Source: Hysterangium stoloniferum (Eukaryota; Basidiomycota; Agaricomycetes; Hysterangiales; Hysterangiaceae). Taken from it: 64,000 bases of DNA. Shown here in pieces: positions 5,103 through 60,867 of the stretch (positions are counted from its first letter, which is position 1; every line of letters begins with the position of its first letter). The DNA lies in NCBI GenBank assembly GCA_015178975.1, contig WHVD01000121.1, positions 186,001 to 250,000 on the forward strand. Direction: 5' to 3'. The notes below the pieces were generated by a model, which was not told where the DNA came from, searched no databases, and saw only the letters and a list, made by a program, of their open reading frames with translations. The position numbers were made by a program, and so were the translations under genes.

Positions 5103-8100
5103 CCTGAGGGGAAGCCTAGCAGAAGGTTGATCGTCTGCATTGACGGTACCTCCAATCAATTTGGAGAAAAGGTAACTACATATGTCTTCCAGAAGTTTTA
5201 CAATGTCTTAGACTTAGCTCTACAGAATACTAATGTCATCGAGTTATACAGTCAACTCGTTAAGGATGACGGGTCACAACTCACTTAATATAACAGTGGT
5301 ATCGGTACTTATGCTAAACCGTCTTGGAAGTCTTGGAGTTACCTGAAACAAGTTGTTAGCAACAAAATCGATTTGGCGATTGCCTGGTATGTCAACATTG
5401 TGTCTGCTTGTAGTCAACTAAACACCGCATCTCCAAGGAATTTTGAGAAGATTGTCATCAGTGCCTACCGGTGGTTGGCCGATAATTACCAAGATGGCGA
5501 CAAGATTTATTTGTTCGGTGAGGTAGAACAAATTTGGCGCTTTATGACACTCATTAAATGATCACACCCGTGGATGATAGGATTTTCACGCGGCGCTTAT
5601 CAAGTGCACGTTTTGGCCGGAATGATTGACAAAGTAAGGCATTACGCCGTATTAGCCATCTGAAGATTCTACGAGATCTTGATATGATTAGGTTGGTCTC
5701 ATATACAAGGGAAACGAAGAACAGATTCCATTGTGAGATGGGTTTCCGCATATGAATCCCAGGGGACTAATGAGGTCTTATTAGTGCATACGAGTTATAT
5801 GCAGATCCAAGGAGCGATGGGACCACCCCCACCTAGCCGTCGCTTTTCAAGGCCATGGAAAAGGAGGTCATCTCTCTTGAAGGAACCTATTGAACAGGAG
5901 CATCAATCGGAAGGCCCGTCTCTGGAGGGATTTCTCAAATGTGGAAAATTTCGAAAATACTTCAAGAGATCTCGATCCTCATCACTAGCAGAGCCCCTGA
6001 ACTTGGCAAAACGTTTCAAGGATACTTTTTCGAGAAAAGGCGTACGAGTGCATTTTATTGGAGTCTGGTACAATTGATTACCTTCTTGTTCGGTCTTCCC
6101 TATTAATAATGAGCCCCTATGCATTATCAGGGATACCGTCTCTTCCATCGGAATTGTGAGAGGTCGGAATCTTCCCGGCACAGTCAAACTGGATCATACT
6201 TGTTATTTCGGCCATGCACTGGCCCTCGATGGGCGCCGAGTTAAATTCCTTCCCGAGTACGCGTGTGGTGGAGTCATGGTTGATGAAAGTAAGTCGTTGC
6301 ATAACGGCATGCATTTATTATAACTGCTTTTCGCAGAATCATCGGAGAATCCGCGGCAACGTCCTCCGCATAACGGCCCGAACCATCCAATCCCTCACAC
6401 CCCAAGTGAAAGCCCTACCTTTCCGAAAAAGAGACAGCAACCACAGAAACTTCCGCACATCAAGGAAGTGTGGTTCCCTGGGACCCATTCAGATATGTCA
6501 GTCTATCGATGTTATCTCTTCACTATACTCCGTGCTAACTCACTACTATGTGCAGAGGTGGAGGAAATGTTGTTAATGGCAACCTAGACCGCAGATATCC
6601 TTCCTTCTTATGGATGACATTTGAAGCTGTGTGGGCAGGTCTGAAACTAGACCGTTCCAACGTAGCCTGGAACTGGGATGAGCTAGATTCAATGCGTGAA
6701 TCCCTGACCCTTCCTTGGCAAATTCTGGAGTATCTACCTATGAAACAACTATCCTACCAGTCAGCCGATAGTATCACTTGGTGGTATGCACATGCCGTCA
6801 ATATAAGATGAATATACTAATTGTTCCAACATAAAAGGCCCCATCGTCGTCGTGGACGCAAAATACAACCAGGACAGAAGGTGCACGTCTCGTTGGTATA
6901 TTGTGTATTACCATATTTGCCCAAGGCTCTTCTGCCTGTGGGTAAAGGAACATGGTCCGATTACGTGAGCCCTTATAAGCCGAAAGCCGACTATTATCTC
7001 CCATGGTCGGTTCAGGATGACAAGAAAGAGCTATTCGAACTTGATATATTTGATGCCGATGACACGGAGCACCACGGAGCACATCATGAAAACGATTGAA
7101 AGCGCAGCTGACCCAACCGGGGGCTGCACCGTCTGGGAATTATGCTCAAGTCATGTTCCTCATTCACCTATTATATCTTCCCAACGCATACTAATATATA
7201 TGTTGTAGACAAGGGGCGAGAAGCTTTGTGCTCCCTGGACAACGCTGGTAATCGCTTGGCGTCAATTATGCCACACATTCCTTCACAGCTTAGATCGACT
7301 ATAATCCATCATCTTGCACATTATCCCGAGAACATCGATCTATTCTTCTATCCCCGGGATTGTTTTACTAGTACAGATGGCGATGCTGACTCATCCACAA
7401 AGTGTCTTGTAGAGGTTCTCAGCACATGTGACGAAACATTTTTTAAGGAACTTGTAGCATACCGACAGCAATCAGAAGTCACCCAAGGGGACTTCCGAAA
7501 TTGGACTTCTGTCGCACTGGAAGGTGTTTTGCATAACGGTAAAGCAGTTTAACGGACAGAAATAGTTCACGTGTTAACTTGTTAACTTGTATGATAGATG
7601 CCGTCCGCCGTCACCTGATGAACGCCGGCATTATCGAGTCCGTTTTATCCCCGCTCTCCGATCAGACCAAAATGGTCCGCATACTTGGCATCGAATTTGC
7701 AGCGCGCTTGGCTTTCGATGGTACAGTGCCTTAACATATTGGTGATAAGCCGCTCATGTCATATAGATGAGATCCGCGGCAGGGTTGACTGGGAACAATG
7801 TCTGGCGTTCCTCCCGAGATGGGCTAGGAGATGACGATAAGAAGATTCGAGAGTCCTCCTGGAGGTCAGTAGCATATATTTGGGCAAGTGGTACGCCAGG
7901 TGCATTCCGTGTCAGAATCATCAACTAAATAACATCAGTTGACCTGAGGCCTTTCGTGTTGGCATCGAGTTTCATCGAAATTGCTTTGGATACGATGGTT
8001 TTTCGGTCGCGGGCTGATGAGCGGTTCAGTGATTTCTTCATGATTAATGAGGCCTTACGCGTGATGGCGCGAAATGGTGAGCGCCGTACAATATCCGCTG

Positions 8101-50501: not shown

Positions 50502-50698
50502 TGTTAAGGGTGCGTACACGGAGGGTTTCCGGAGAAACTGGTGGAAAAGCCGGTAGGACTTGGCTTCAGCTTATAGGCTCTGCCCTCGTGAGATCATCTT
50601 GTCCAATTTCAAATGGGCGGATGGGAATCCTGGGAAGTCTGGGCAGAGTTCATGGGTTGAGAGGTCGGGGAGTCAAGATAGAAAAGTTAGAGGTCGAG
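50502..50698 (-). mobile_element. Old solo LTR A3, left piece (rest at 59548-60164)
   Basis: A minus-orientation LTR A begins here (TGTTAAGGGTGCG) and is cut at 50698 by the chromovirus. It resumes at 59548 and ends CATAACA at 60164. GTATG flanks the reconstructed LTR (50497-50501, 60165-60169). The two pieces sum to about 810 bp, the normal length. Confidence 0.93.
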
Positions 50699-51496
50699 TG
50701 TTACGACTGGAAATCCTGCCAGACTCCGGGCACTAACTTATACACACCCACGCCCTATCCGCACCCATTATCAGTTTACTGGAATTCCCACCGGACTCCA
50801 TACGTCAGCCTCATCTATGTTCATCTTCGTTACATTGTGTTTCAGTCACCGGAAAACCCACTGGACTCTGTTCTGTCTATGTCCAACCTCATCCCGCGCA
50901 TCAGTCACCGGACCCCACTCAGAAAACCTGTTACCTCTCTAACAGAGCCCCATTCCCATTTTAGTCAAATGACCTGTCACGATTCGGACTCTGCTCCCGC
51001 TCCATTTCCCGATATGGTTTATGATTTGTCACTATTCGGACTCCACTCTGTCCTGTCCCATTCCTAACACCAATTTGGTGCTTACATTTCCCGTTTTATG
51101 TTTTGCTCATTCTTTTTCATTATTACTGGATTCGGTATGACATTTACTCCACGGTCTATTTAAACTGTACATACAATCCAGTCAGAAAATCAGCTTAGAT
51201 TCCCCCCAGTAATCTAATACATTTTCCACTCTAAACTCCTGCTTGAATTACACTGCTCGCACTAGTCAGAGCCCACGGGCTCTGGCGCATCTATCTCTCT
51301 CACGCCATCTCGACCCACAACCTCCGACCTACGACCCCTCGACCCACAACCCCTGCCCAGACTCCCCAGGATTCCCGTCCACCCATCTGAAATTGGATGA
51401 CACAATCTAGCGAGGGCGCAGCCTATAAGCTGAAGCCAATTCCTACCGGATATTCCGCAGGTTTCTCCGGAGACCTGCCCTGTATGTATCCTAACA
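50699..51496 (+). mobile_element. 5' LTR of the chromovirus
   Basis: TGTTACGACTGG … GTATCCTAACA. It contains TATTTAAA (51157-51164) and the conserved box at 51414-51439. Confidence 0.95.
51157..51190 (+). promoter_or_regulatory. LTR promoter: TATTTAAA and probable transcript start
   Basis: TATTTAAA at 51157-51164 is followed 23 nt after its first base by AGTCAGAAAAT (51180-51190), which complements the primer site after the LTR. In self-priming elements the complement lies at the very 5' end of the RNA, so transcription probably begins near 51180. Inference. Confidence 0.6.
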
Positions 51497-53235: not shown

Positions 53236-54044
53236 TGTTACGGCCCGGACAAATCCCGCCGGACTCCGGGCACTAACCTGTATGCCCTCATGTGCTACAA
53301 GCACCAATTGTCTGTTTAAAGGATTTCCCGCCCAGACTCCGTCACGTCAAGACTTGTTATGTTCGACCTCATTACGACACATATCAGTAACCGGACTTCC
53401 CCTGGACTCCGTCTCTGTCTATGTCCATCTTCGTCCCATGCATCAGTCACCGGATCCTGCTCAGAATCCCGTCACCGCTCTATTTGAGCCCCGTTCCCAT
53501 TTTAGTCAAATGACCTGTCATGATTAGGACTCCGCTCCTGCTCCGTTTCCCGTTATGGGTTATGCTTTGTCACGATTCGGACTCCACTCCGTTCCGTCCC
53601 ATTCCTAACACCAAATTTGGTGTTTACTATTCCCGTTTATGTTTTGTTAGTTTCGTTTTCATTATTACCGGATTAGTATGTCATTCACTCCATGGTCTAT
53701 TTAAACTGGCAGATGTTGTACATACAATCCAGTCAGAAAATTAGCTTAGATTCCCCCCAGTAATCTAATATATTTTCCCTACTCTAATCACACCGCTCGC
53801 ACTAGTCGGAGCCCATGGGCTCTGGTGTATCTATCTCTCTCGACTATCTCGACTCACGACTCATGACTCACGACCTCACGACCTATGACCTCCGAACCCT
53901 GCCCGGACTCCCCGGGATTCCCATCCGCCTGTTCGAAATTGGACGACACGATCTAGCGAGGGCGCAGCCTATAAGCTGAAGCCAAGTCCTACCGGATATC
54001 CCGGGGGTTTCTCATGAGACCTGCCCTGTTTGTGTATCCTAACA
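53236..54044 (+). mobile_element. Solo LTR A4 inside the chromovirus, 809 bp
   Basis: TGTTACGGCC … GTATCCTAACA with CAGTA duplicated (53231-53235, 54045-54049). Same family and orientation as the host's own LTRs. Confidence 0.96.
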
Positions 54045-54049
54045 CAGTA

Positions 54050-55170
54050 TAACATTCTGGACTCCCGTGGCAGCTGAGGAAACTGTGCCCATCCTGGTCT
54101 CCACGGCACCCATGGCCTTCCTAGCATCTGCTGTCTCGAGGACTCCTGTGATCCCTATAGCATCCATAGCTTCCCCGGAACCCACAGCACCTCCGTCTAT
54201 TTCTCTGATTAATGCTGCAGCTTGTATTAGGGCTACAAAAATGGACGGGTCCCAGGCATTCACTATCAACTTAAAAATTGATGAAGCAACTGGACATTTT
54301 TCAACCCCGGTATCTGAATCTGAGAAAGCCACTGACCTAGAAGGCATCCCAGAGAAATATCATGACTTCGTGGATGATTTTAGCAAGCGGAAAGCTGACT
54401 GGCTTCCGCCTCACAGAAAATACGACTTAAAATTGATCTCGAAGATGGCACCCAGCCACCCCTAGGACATATTCACCCACTCTCGTCCACAGAACTTTCC
54501 ACAATCCGTGATTTCCTGGATGAACATTTGTCCATAGGTTTTATCCGACCCTCAAAGTCTCCTTTTGGAGCACCTGTTCTGTTTGTCAGAAAAAAGGATG
54601 GATCCCTTAGACTATGTGTTGATTTTAGAGGCCTCAATGCTGTCACCAAAAAGGATAAGTATCCACTCCCACTCATATCTGATCTGCTCGATGCTCCACA
54701 GAATGCCAAGATTTACACCAAAATAGATCTCAAACATGCCTATCATTTGGTCCGGATTGCCATGGGTGATGAATGGAAAACCACTTTTAGAACCCATTAT
54801 GGGGCCTTCGAGTGGTTGGTGATGCCCTTTGGACTCATCAATGCTCCATCTGTTTTTCAGCATTTTATCAATGACATTTTCTCCAACATGCTCGATGTAT
54901 ATGTCATTGTTTACTTGGACGACATTCTTATCTACTCCGAGAATCCCGCAGAACACGACAAACAAGTCCATGAAGTTCTCTGGAGACTCAGACAACATGG
55001 TTTATTCACGAATGGTAAAAAATGTACTTTTGACACAGACTCCATGGAATACCTGGGTTTCATCATGGGACCCGACAGACTCCGCATGGACAAAACTAAA
55101 GTGCAAGTCATCAAAGATTGGCCTGAACCCTGAAAGGTTAAAGATATACAATCCTTCCTCAGCTTTGCCA
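54050..55170 (+). pseudogene. Chromovirus reverse transcriptase with linker
   Basis: The linker to 54465 ends in EKATDLEGIPEKYHDF. A shift follows, then the RT frame 54528-55133: [48 protein letters not shown] and the catalytic [10 protein letters not shown] intact. It ends in WPEP then TGA at about 55131 (CGA expected before KVKDIQSF) and another TGA shortly after. Confidence 0.92.
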
Positions 55171-56079: not shown

Positions 56080-57345
56080 TTCAGGTACAACAAAACTCTA
56101 TCACTAATAAGAAGAGAATATACTTGGCCCGGACTCAGTGGATTGATTAAGCACTATTGTAAATCTTGCACTACTTGTCCCCGCTTGAAATCTCAGCGAC
56201 ACAAGCCATACAGCCTTTTGAAACAACTCCTGGTACCAGAACATCCATGGAATTCTATCTCTATGGATTTCATTGAACACCTACCAGATTCTGAAGGCTT
56301 TTCTGCCATTCTAGTCATTGTTGACAGATTCTCAAAACAAGGTATATTCATCCCTACATATGACACAATTATGTCTGTGCAGTTAGCAGAACTTTTTATT
56401 ATCCATGTATTTTCCAAGCATGGAGTTCCATCCCACATGACTTCCGATTGAGGATCAGAGTTCGTGTCTCACTTCTTTAGATCCCTTGGGAAATCCTTGG
56501 ACATGACACTACATTTCACGTCCGGACATCACCCAGAAGGCGACGGACAAACTGAACGTGTCAACCAGACATTGGAACAATACCTCCGTGTATATTGCAA
56601 CTACCAACAGGACAATTGAAAATTCTTGTTGCCACTTGCAGAGTTTGCTTACAACAATGCACCCTCGGCCACTACTGGCATTTCCCTGTTCTTTGCAAAT
56701 AAAGGATATAATCCAAATATTACAGTACATCCAGAACGAAATCTTGCCTCTGCCCGTGCTCAAGAGTTCACCATGGACCTCCACGAGCTCCACGAGGAAC
56801 TCCGGACTGCAATAAAGTCCGCCCAAGAGCAATACCAACTTTCAGTAGACAGACACCAGATTCCACCACCCAATTTCAAGATTGGCGACCGTGTTTTTGT
56901 CAAAGCTCAATTCTTCCAGACTACCCATCCATCAAAAAAGCTTGCTGAAAAATATTTAGGTCCCTTTGAAATTATCACACAAGTAGGTTCAGTTTCTTGG
57001 ACTCTATGGCTTCTGGATAGCATGTGTGCGGTACACCCAGTATTTCATGTTTCTATGCTAGAACCTTGTACTGCTAACACTATCCCGGATTGCGTGCAAT
57101 CTCTGCCTCCTCTGGTCATTATTGACGGAGAACCCGAGTTTGAAATCTCGCAAATTTTAAATTCGAAAATTGACAAGTGTCGATGCACTTGTAAACTGCT
57201 TTACTTGGTCAAGTGGGCGGGTTACAAGGGCACTGATGAAGAAACCTCATGGATTTTGGCCACAGAACTCAGTAATGCCACGGAAATCGTTACTGACTTT
57301 CATACAGCTTACCCACTCAAACCCAGACCACTATCGTCTCTCTGA
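56080..57345 (+). pseudogene. Chromovirus integrase with C-terminal chromodomain
   Basis: Zinc module end CKSCTTC, DDE core with MDFIEHLP (Asp), SHMTSD followed by TGA at about 56450 (second Asp kept) and QTERVNQTLE (Glu). Another TGA lies at about 56618. The frame 56626-57345 is open: GDRVFVKAQFFQ, LAEKYLGPFEII, VHPVFHVSMLEPC and the chromodomain at about 57136-57330 (EFEISQILNSK … LLYLVKWAGYKGTDEETSW). The chromodomain keeps the aromatic and acidic residues typical of the fold and would guide integration to modified histones. Confidence 0.92.
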
Positions 57346-57565
57346 CTGCACTCCGTGGACCCCATGTTACAGTACGTATGGACTCATTTTCATTATTCCC
57401 TGTCGCCCTATGTCTCTCTTTGCTTTTACAGGTTCTGACATGTCTTTCAAGTCCTCAAGCGGATTTTCCGCAGACTTTGACTTTGACTTCAATTTCTTAT
57501 GTTTTTCACACTTTACTTTTATGTTCAAATTATTTTTTATTCTATACTACTTTTTCAGTCTACAT
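57346..57565. other. Intergenic between pol and the antisense ORF
   Basis: T-rich spacer between two convergent frames. No motif recognised. Confidence 0.5.
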
Positions 57566-58527
57566 TTATGGGACTTGTTTTTTCCCCGCCTCCTCAGCTA
57601 CCTCCTCAGGAAGCTCTGCGACCTCCATGGCAACCCCATCCTCATCTGACCCAGCATCCTCGGAACTCCCGACTTGCAGCTCTTCATATACATAGCCACC
57701 ATACTCCACCAGGAACTTCCAAAATTCCTCGCGGAGTCCACACAGTTCCTTTGCCACCACTATGTGGACCTTGTTGCTCTTCCAGAGCAACTCGTTTTGG
57801 GCCTCGATGCCCTCGGCGATCCATCCTAAGACTTCATCCAACCCAGAAAACCCGTCCAACCTGCTTATGTCTCGTGCCCCAGACCCTGCGGCCTGCTTGT
57901 GAATGAGTGAGCACCTCACCTTGAGGTGTGTGCATTGATAGCAGCCTGGACCCCAGCTGGACTTTCAGTTGCATTCAGTGTTCTGGTCATTACAACTGGA
58001 ACACCGCAGGTGATTCTGTGTGGGTAGGCAGACTGGCACCACCTTCCTTGCCTTCTGTTGATACAGTCAGTTCCTACGGTTATCCCATGGACCTGAGGCT
58101 TACCTTTTTGGGGTTCTCTGGCTCCCCCTCGGACTCCAACTCCACCTCTGTCGCTTTGTGCTGAAAATAACAAGTCAGTCAGTCAAAAAAGGCAAGTTAA
58201 ATTGAGACTTACCTTTCCCGTGACAATCGTGGCCCTGTCCATCGCCACCTGGGCTTTCTCCGCAGCCACCCAGGCATTCTCTGCGGCCACCCATGCAGCC
58301 TCCTCCTCTTCTTGTTCCCTCTGCCTTGTGGCCTCTTCCTCCACGGCCAATGCCACCTGGTACTCCTGTCCAGAGCCTCCTCAGCCTCCCTGGCCTCCCT
58401 CTCTGCTTCCTCACGAAGTCAGTGCTGCTCTTCATGCCGCGCCAAAAGTTGGGTTGTGCTCCAAGGTGCCCAATATGGAGTGCCTGGCGGTTGGCATTGC
58501 TTGTTTTGGCATTGGTTTGGGTCCCAT
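57566..58527 (-). pseudogene. Antisense spliced ORF in the chromovirus: coiled coil plus Zn2Cys6-like cluster
   Basis: On the minus strand ATG at 58527 opens MGPKPMPKQAMP. An Ala/Glu-rich coiled coil follows (REEAEREAREAEEALDR; EEEATRQREQEEEEAAW; AAEKAQVAMDRATIV). Exon 1 ends 58213 at GTAAGT. Intron 1 is 52 nt. Exon 2, 58160-58104, is acidic (ATEVELESEGEPENPKK). Intron 2 is 49 nt. Exon 3, 58054-57566, has the pattern CX2CX6CX9CX2CX6C starting CSSCNDQNTEC and ending HLKVRC, then a helical region and an acidic tail. That spacing fits the fungal Zn(II)2Cys6 cluster. Two frameshifts and a TGA in exon 1 and a TGA inside the Cys cluster (TGG expected) make this copy non-functional. Role unknown; DNA or RNA binding is a guess. 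Confidence 0.65.
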
Positions 58528-58723
58528 TTTTTCGAAGATGGGGGTAATAAAGAAGAAGAATTTCTATTTTTTCAAATTTTTATATAGGCTCATCGCATTT
58601 GAACCTTACCTTCCAGATCACATGACTTCTTGACACATACATGTAACCAACATGACTTTTGACACATGCGTGTAGCTGACAAGAACCTTATCTAGGTCTA
58701 GAGCCTCTTTGGGACTTCAGCAT

Positions 58724-58733
58724 AAAGGGAGGG
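58724..58733 (+). promoter_or_regulatory. Polypurine tract
   Basis: AAAGGGAGGG followed by TAC directly before the 3' LTR. It would prime plus-strand DNA synthesis. Confidence 0.85.
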
Positions 58734-58736
58734 TAC

Positions 58737-59547
58737 TGTTATGACCAGAAATCCCGCCAAACTCTGGGCACTAACATAAACACACCCATGCCCTATATGC
58801 ACCTGTTATCAGTTTACTGGAATTCCCACTGGACTCTGTATGTCAGCCTCACCTATGTTCGTCTTCGTTACATTGTGTTTCAGTCACCAGAAAACCCACC
58901 AGACTCCGTTCTGTCTATGTCCAACCTCATCCCACGTGTCAGTCACTGGACCCCACTCAGAAAACCCATCACCTCTCTAACAGAGCCCCATTTCCATTTT
59001 AGTCAAATGACCTGTCACAATTCGGACTCCGCTCCCACTCCATTTCCTGATATGGTTTATGATTTGTCACTGTTCAGACTCCACTCTGTTCCATCCCATT
59101 CCTAACACCAATTTGGTGTTTACATACATTTCCCATTTTATGTTTTGCTCATTCCATTTCATTATTACTGGATTCGGTGTGACATTTACTCCACGGTCTA
59201 TTTAAACTGGCAGATGTTGTACATACAATCCAGTCAGAAAATCGGCTTAGATTCCCCCCAGTAATCTAATACATTTTCCACTCTAAACTCCTACTTGAAT
59301 TACACCACTTGCACTAGTCGGAGCCCATGGGCTCTGGCACATCTATCTCTCTCACGACATCTCGACCCACGACCTCCGACTACGACCCCTCGACCCACGA
59401 CCCCCACCCGAACTCCCCGGGATTCCTGTCTGCCTGTCTGAAATTGGACAACACGATCTAGTGAGGGCACAGCCTATAAGCTGAAGCCAAGTCCTACTGG
59501 ATATTCTGCGGGTTTCTCCAGAGACCTGCCCTGTATGTATATCCTAA
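58737..59547 (+). mobile_element. 3' LTR of the chromovirus
   Basis: TGTTATGACC … GTATATCCTAACA, 811 bp. It differs from the 5' LTR at many CpG/TpG/CpA positions and by the 11-bp segment. Confidence 0.95.
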
Positions 59548-60164
59548 CATCGAGTGATAGATGCATTGGAGCCCATGGGCTCCGACTACTAAGAGAGGTG
59601 TGATTCAAAGAGGAGTTTAGAGCGGAAAATGTACTAAGATTATTGGGGAGAATCTAAGCTGATTTTCTGACTGGATTGTATGTTCAACATCTGCCAGACT
59701 ATATAGACTGTGGAATGAATAACATACCAAATACAGTAATAATGTAAATGAAACTAACAAACATAAAACAACATAAGTAAACACCAAACTTGGTGTTAGG
59801 AACAGGATGGAACAGAGCGGAGTCCGAATCGTGACAGGTCATAAAACCATAATGGGAATGGAGTGGGAGTGGAGTCTGAATCATGACAGTCATTTGACTA
59901 TAACAGGAATGAGGCTCAGTTAGAGGGATGACGGGTTTTCCGAGTGGGGTCTGGTGACTGATGTGTAGGACAGAGTCAGAGATAGACAGGGATGGAGTCT
60001 GGTGGGTATTCCGGTAACTGATACATGAAGTAATGAAGTCGAACATGGACAAGTCTGATGTACAGAGTCTGGCATGAATTCCAATAAACTGACAATTGGT
60101 GTGTATAGGGTGTGGGTGCATATAAGTTAGTGCCCAGAGTCTGGCAGGAATTCCAGTCATAACA
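59548..60164 (-). mobile_element. Old solo LTR A3, right piece
   Basis: Continuation of the LTR started at 50502, including the second TCGAG copy. It ends CATAACA and is followed by GTATG, matching the left flank. Confidence 0.93.
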
Positions 60165-60867
60165 GTATGTATGATTGGAAAGTAAACACTAAGGAGACTT
60201 TCCCTCAACCACAGTGGAGTATTCTACTGGGTACTTATCCAAACACACAAGAGTTACCAAACTAAGTAACTCACTAAATACTGCACCTACAGTGTTGGGA
60301 AAAATATTACAAATACCAGAAAAATATAGGGAGAAATATAGGTAACATAATAAACTATGTTAGAGCTGTAGTATCATACTCTCACAGTATTTTGGCTCAT
60401 CTGTCTGAATTTTTCCCCTTGTTCCCTTCCCACTGCTTCTAGACTTTTCCCTGTAAATATAGGAGGATAGTCACAATTTATTAAATATACAAAACTTTAT
60501 GGAAAAGTCCTCATATTTTTAAGTGAAAGTATTTCCTCTGGCTATGACTACATGTTTTAAAATATGTATCCACAAATGTCATGGTTAAACAAGATTATTT
60601 GGGTCAAGACTTCATCTGTGGGATAAAATGCATTCCTTGTTAGGATTCCATCATTTTGGATCCCCATGACCAATTTAGACTTAAAACCCTTTGTCAACTC
60701 ACTATTGGTACCCTTACCCAAGGTATCACTGCTTGCGGTACTCCTGACACTTGTTTAATTATAGTAGTTAGCCCTCTAGCTTTGATTCCATCTCCATCCC
60801 ATCCAATCCCCCATCACCATCTCCTTTTATGTACATATCTCACTTGCCACCTCAGACCCCTTTAGTA
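60165..60867. other. Spacer, no gene
   Basis: AT-rich. A 69-codon frame at 60656-60865 (Pro/His-rich end) has no motif. Confidence 0.4.

Follow-up and report, generated by a model that had tools for sequence, protein, structure and literature searches.

A Ty3/gypsy chromovirus family in the genome of Hysterangium stoloniferum, a truffle-like fungus (Basidiomycota, Phallomycetidae), carries an antisense accessory gene of three exons as a regular component, and purifying selection has long acted on the reading frame of this gene. That we are dealing with a real protein gene maintained by selection is nearly certain. The gene was found in the window, a stretch of 64,000 nucleotides, and was then compared among copies of the element across the genome.

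The element in the window is bounded by a 5' LTR (50699..51496, plus strand), delimited by its TGTTA...TAACA ends and by alignment to the 3' LTR, and by a 3' LTR (58737..59549, plus strand), found by repeat comparison and LTR alignment. On both sides the flank sequence shows a 5-bp target-site duplication, TCGAG (50694..50698 on the left, 59550..59554 on the right). The reverse transcriptase part of pol (RVT_1, PF00078, E 2.2e-36) lies at 54528..55133 (plus strand), and the 3' part of pol (56626..57345, plus strand) encodes an SH3_Tf2-1-like domain (Pfam PF24626, E 3.3e-18) and a C-terminal chromodomain (Pfam PF00385, 26.4 bits against a cut-off of 25.1). Having reverse transcriptase and a C-terminal chromodomain above the cut-off, between two LTRs with a target-site duplication, the element is a chromovirus. 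A tract of purines adjoins the 3' LTR (58724..58734, plus strand) and is by convention taken as the polypurine tract. Alignment of the two LTRs over 814 bases gives an identity of only 88.6%, and the gag and pol frames are interrupted; therefore, the window element is an old, dead copy. Nested in it is a solo LTR of the same kind as its own LTRs (53236..54043, plus strand), recognized from the repeat families and the start motif, with CAGTA on both flanks. Among the inverted repeats there is also an LTR of this kind in the opposite orientation, directly adjoining the right end of the element (59552-60208).

Between the chromodomain and the 3' LTR, antisense to pol, where a preliminary description had placed the gene, the following parts were recognized, all on the minus strand: exon 1 (58213..58527, with the ATG at 58527), intron 1 (58161..58212, GTAAGT...TTTCAG), exon 2 (58104..58160), delimited by sequence and copy comparison and containing the start of an NLS-like basic/acidic stretch, intron 2 (58055..58103, GTAAGC...CAACAG), and exon 3 (57566..58054), which encodes a Cys motif, a helix and an acidic tail. 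Both introns agree with that description, and so does the six-Cys motif (57911..58003, minus strand), whose spacing of CX2CX6CX9CX2CX6C is exact. The three exons had also been said to join in frame; this is true of the splice phase, while an open frame is absent from the window copy. Its exon 1 has three in-frame stops, with the middle part in a different frame, and its exon 3 has one internal stop, inside the X9 loop of the Cys motif. The accessory gene of three exons is thus present in the window in a disabled state.

The whole genome (111 Mb in 554 contigs) was searched for other copies. A DNA search gave 41 rows, the best 40 of 771 candidates, the last row being a short piece of another listed copy; a protein search with exon 3 gave the best 150 of 1372 candidates. 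The resulting set of 80 copies comprises the window copy, 39 other DNA-ranked places and 40 places from the protein-ranked list; the latter were chosen for lower identity among the best 150 of 1372, which biases them towards a conserved exon 3. As the copies are related by descent, pair counts are not independent.

The start codon and the splice sites are kept almost throughout this set. The ATG is present in 76 of the 80 copies, and intron 2 retains its GT in 78 and its AG in 80. Since they lie on the strand opposite to the genomic RNA, the introns escape splicing in the RNA that is reverse transcribed and pass into each new copy; this reasoning, already given in the preliminary description, is sound, and intron 1 has both its GT and its AG in every one of the 80 copies. 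Intron 1 is 48-64 nt long and intron 2 is 47-53 nt long. A branch-like CTNAY site precedes the 3' splice site of intron 1 by 5-40 nt in 73/80 copies, and one is present in intron 2 in 80/80. The donor of intron 2 is GTAGGC in 53 copies and GTAAGC in 22, the commonest form, GTAGGC, being the weaker one. In the ruler copy intron 1 has 49 nt and holds an in-frame stop; therefore, splicing is needed there. In half of the set (40/80) splicing leaves an ORF of 280 aa or more. Relative to the ruler copy, indel lengths are multiples of three in 34 of 74 exon cases and in 6 of 205 intron cases, inherited indels being recounted.

Candidate expression signals, all of them consensus matches, flank the coding part. 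The candidate promoter is a TATA box, TATATAAA (58579..58586, minus strand), outside the LTR; the motif TATAWA is found 57-61 nt upstream of the ATG in 75/80 copies, and a purine occupies position -3 in 77/80. Upstream of the TATA box there are two near-copies of ATGTGTCAA(G)AAGTCATGT (58620..58668, minus strand), a candidate control site. The interval from -140 to -81, which holds these repeats, is one of the most conserved stretches of the upstream region (0.966-0.988 in blocks of 20 nt), and scarcity of CpG sites may account for part of this conservation. The stop codon is followed by AATAAAAAATAA (57530..57541, minus strand), a candidate poly(A) signal, and in 60/80 copies an AATAAA occurs no more than 150 nt beyond the stop. 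The TATA and AATAAA matches together suggest a complete gene unit.

The gene seems to have been largely missed by annotation, since protein searches gave just three partial models among the matches listed. These public H. stoloniferum models (P0001-P0003) are named hypothetical proteins; by eye, P0002 and P0003 agree with the structure given here on where exons 1 and 2 join, and P0003 agrees on exons 2 and 3 as well. In exon 1 of one copy (L028) a unit REEQRCL is repeated, and an older copy (L102) contains tandem repeats of the exon-1 helix codons 5' of exon 2. Exon 1 seems to lengthen and shorten via in-frame repeats.

To what extent the gene belongs to the element was seen from copies picked regardless of it. 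The genome was searched with the chromodomain (best 150 of 2251 candidates), and the first 13 rows were used: the window (row 2), one known copy (row 4) and 11 new ones. Exon 3 was matched in all 11 of the new copies, in three of them only partly. Among the ten copies first compared, the exon-3 match extends over at least 493 nt in seven and is shorter or split in three; the eleventh copy was matched separately. Exon 1 was matched in only 6/11 and exon 2 in only 5/11 at the thresholds used, hence the older chromodomain-selected copies are often eroded. The search of related elements that the preliminary description had called for thus came out, within this one genome, in favour of the gene. 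Its main proposal, a two-intron antisense protein gene carried by a chromovirus, holds for the family and fails for the window copy as an intact gene. As an ORF that runs opposite to gag-pol, sits between pol and the 3' LTR and occurs in most copies, the gene is of the kind called aORF-3R.

Seven chromodomain places of other chromoviruses were also inspected; they represent about four families, with paired members 93-96% alike. The antisense gene was not found in the 2.2 kb after the chromodomain; the best tblastn match had E 2.2 and blastn gave none at E ≤ 1, nested insertions shortening the view at some of these places. Two other chromovirus families of this genome have a sense ORF after the chromodomain (L088, 918-1509; L091, 363-843; element sense coordinates). 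The proteins of this ORF share 51% identity over 156 positions and have no Pfam match at E ≤ 10; it is a second, different accessory gene. On the same contig as the window, another copy (L105, C26 143486-143725) encodes a chromodomain stretch whose protein sequence matches that of the window at 100%, while its antisense region is only 81% identical to the window's in DNA.

Selection on the reading frame was assessed from pairwise dN/dS, with pairs of dS ≤ 0.02 or with fewer than 60% of codons comparable dropped. In the true frame the medians are 0.33, 0.29, 0.25, and 0.22 across rising dS classes. The two shifted frames of the minus strand give 0.94-1.34, and two plus-strand frames give 0.99-1.43. 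The third plus-strand frame, which shares its third codon positions with the antisense frame, has values of 0.30-0.40 and contains stops in 80/80 copies. For pol, dN/dS is 0.19-0.24, with 0.40 in the highest dS class (89 pairs), so that in most classes pol is more strongly constrained than the antisense frame. Codon-based maximum likelihood gave omega of 0.44 in the true frame vs. 1.47 and 1.50 in the shifted ones, and of 0.46 vs. 1.56 in the 40 DNA-selected copies alone; by part, it is 0.52 in exon 1 and 0.40 in exons 2-3, and in the mirror sense frame it is 0.52.

The frequency of variants gives a further view of the same selection. Singletons are divided into 104 synonymous and 236 non-synonymous changes (stops included), and variants present in at least 10% of copies into 120 and 117 (p 1.6e-6). 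With CpG sites removed, the counts become 64:156 and 44:29, respectively (p 2.9e-6), and in the DNA-selected 40 copies the test yields p 7.8e-5, or 2.4e-4 without CpG sites. The pattern is the same in pol, only stronger. Since the ratios of singletons and common variants differ, changes common to replicating lineages have been filtered for the protein and those arising after insertion have not. Constraint also extends to greater depth: between seven older chromodomain-selected copies and eight other copies the median dS is 0.89 and dN/dS is 0.19, compared with 1.13 and 1.46 in the shifted frames. These seven were taken from ten chromodomain-selected copies, three (L096, L097, and L104) being excluded as fragmentary. 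The dN/dS check proposed earlier, run here among copies in one genome, therefore speaks for the gene (0.19-0.33 vs. about 0.9-1.5 in shifted frames). A chance ORF is rejected by the frame specificity of the selection.

The predicted protein of about 295 aa consists of a charged helix (exon 1), an NLS-like stretch, the six-Cys module, another helix and an acidic tail. The NLS-like stretch, KRKATEVESESEGEPESPQKKARK (KRK...KKARK), was identified by eye, and the protein is probably nuclear. In the helix after the Cys module 75% of a/d positions are hydrophobic vs. 43% overall, in the best of seven registers; the figures for the exon-1 helix are 57% and 46%. The coiled coil assigned earlier is reduced to what this crude heptad count suggests. 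Each of the six cysteines is kept in 79 or 80 of the 80 copies, a conservation that stands out against random six-position sets (p 0.0008) and is only suggestive when set against exon-3 codons other than CpG ones (p 0.07). Their spacing fits CX2CX6CX5-12CX2CX6-8C, which we take to be the pattern of PF00172. As in Gal4-type Zn2Cys6 regulators, the module is followed by a linker and an amphipathic helix. It differs from them in its Pfam score, which is below the cut-off, and in its basic residues, which in the Zn2Cys6 family are in the first half of the module and here are in the second half.

A search of Pfam with the full protein returned no family at E ≤ 1, bZIP and Zn_clus included. A 63-aa piece gave 14.5 bits with Zn_clus (PF00172), the best stretch covering profile positions 16-31 of 39, and of six longer pieces four gave E 0.97 at best, with 9.6 bits on a 186-aa piece. 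A true Zn2Cys6 domain, as had been considered for the motif, is therefore not borne out at the Pfam cut-off of 21 bits, and the module may be called Zn2Cys6-like by spacing only. Among solved structures five matches were obtained (E 0.08-0.54, the best being klebicin), none significant, and a second search gave a talin-1 helix at E 0.29, likewise not significant. In a search of 5.8 billion proteins, which required exact sharing of five-residue words and in one run ended at 7997 entries, homologs were found only in H. stoloniferum among the matches listed. With no homolog found there beyond Hysterangium, no function can be transferred.

Most likely, the gene encodes a nuclear accessory regulator of the element. 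As a whole, the data are best explained by a selected minus-strand accessory gene whose nuclear protein tunes its own element, an explanation to which we give an even chance. A TATA promoter of its own, in the spacer adjoining the 3' LTR, would drive the gene; the host would splice the antisense transcript, and its translation would yield a protein of about 295 aa that acts in the nucleus and has a zinc-binding-like six-Cys module. The C-terminal amphipathic helix may dimerize. The protein most likely binds DNA or chromatin and could thereby tune the element, either in its expression (the convergent sense transcript or its own promoter) or in its integration, in a way comparable to HBZ in HTLV. 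That the protein regulates the element encoding it is put forward tentatively; regulation of the element or the host, which the preliminary description had suggested, is plausible. A more specific version, in our opinion somewhat doubtful, would have an HBZ-like module independently evolved in a fungal chromovirus: a selected gene driven by a promoter of its own immediately inside the 3' LTR, a product that forms a zinc-binding dimer in the nucleus and either represses the element or targets it, and an antisense orientation that makes the two introns heritable through reverse transcription.

The main rival, an unlikely one, is counter-defence, in which the protein would shield the element from silencing (RNAi, heterochromatin, CpG methylation) or compete with other elements. 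The excess of transitions among copies (kappa 8.4), as from deamination of silenced DNA, is consistent with it, as is the NLS-like stretch, and the other chromovirus families in the genome make both silencing and competition likely; however, the sequence indicates no target, and there is no significant Pfam match. It is highly improbable that the product is the antisense RNA itself, forming dsRNA with the sense transcript and limiting the element, with the protein incidental. The convergent arrangement would permit this, and the idea has been raised for plant elements (PMC7264820), but codon-aware purifying selection, with ratios low only in the true and mirror frames, requires a protein, and dN/dS largely refutes this reading.

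The gene might also be a passenger, a piece of a host gene that was acquired on a single occasion and multiplied along with the element while doing nothing for it. A captured genomic gene would have brought introns, and such an origin would fit the failure to find the gene at the seven places from about four other families. Nevertheless, dN/dS of 0.19 at a median dS of 0.89 and the recovery of exon 3 from every newly examined chromodomain-selected copy (11/11) imply that selection has kept it, which leaves such a passenger very improbable. A neutral passenger is refuted by selection and presence, and host capture may still be the origin of the gene. Finally, the selected frame might lie on the sense strand as a 3' accessory ORF, the antisense frame mirroring it via shared third positions; sense frame 1 does have low values (dN/dS 0.30-0.40, omega 0.52). 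However, the antisense ratio is lower, and the splice sites, the ATG and the TATA box fit the antisense reading, so that this possibility is almost certainly wrong; a gene in the mirror frame is excluded by its stops in 80/80 copies. Another sense frame is free of stops in 34/80 copies but has dN/dS of 0.99-1.29.

Antisense accessory genes of retrotransposons are already a known kind, and their function is mostly not established. For the Hysterangium gene, copies of different age from a single genome give a measure of the selection on the protein, and they come with a constant exon-intron structure and a candidate promoter and terminator. In plants, aORF-3R genes are described in maize Grande (gene23), rice RIRE2 and Silene Retand (TRP28 proteins), gene23 being nuclear and having its own promoter (PMC7264820, PMC11963269). 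Like the Hysterangium gene, they are antisense, lie between pol and the 3' LTR and are kept in many copies. Retand, however, is a non-chromovirus, whereas the Hysterangium element is a chromovirus; the accounts in PMC7264820 and PMC11963269 mention no six-Cys motif, and the word intron is absent from both main texts, whereas the Hysterangium gene has both features; and the Hysterangium protein shows no Pfam kinship of any sort at E ≤ 1.

The preliminary description had rightly named such ORFs from plant gypsy elements, but they are not confined to plants: the Boty/BcGypsy1 gypsy elements of Botrytis cinerea have an additional antisense gene, brtn (PMC7264820, PMC8365987), and a CHROMO domain is reported in a Boty-like element that carries brtn (PMC4227169, PMC8365987). 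Compared by description only, brtn resembles the Hysterangium gene as an antisense extra gene in a fungal gypsy element. No fungal antisense element gene with introns was found described in the open-access literature, covered mainly by titles and the starts of abstracts, and term look-ups in PMC2864245, PMC3411680, PMC7550596, and PMC5987419 showed none.

Among retroviruses, HTLV-1 HBZ and HTLV-2 APH-2 are expressed from a spliced antisense transcript from the side of the 3' LTR, and the protein feeds back on sense expression; HBZ is a bZIP protein with its start codon in an LTR segment, while APH-2 is without a classical bZIP (PMC3185765). The Hysterangium protein likewise has no bZIP, no Pfam family being matched at E ≤ 1. 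In contrast to HBZ, the ATG and the predicted TATA box of the Hysterangium gene are outside the LTR, two introns lie within its coding part, and its protein has a six-Cys motif. The likeness is one of arrangement. If its product acts on its own element, the gene would be a retrotransposon counterpart of the retroviral antisense regulators, and also a natural case of spliceosomal introns passing reverse transcription on the opposite strand.
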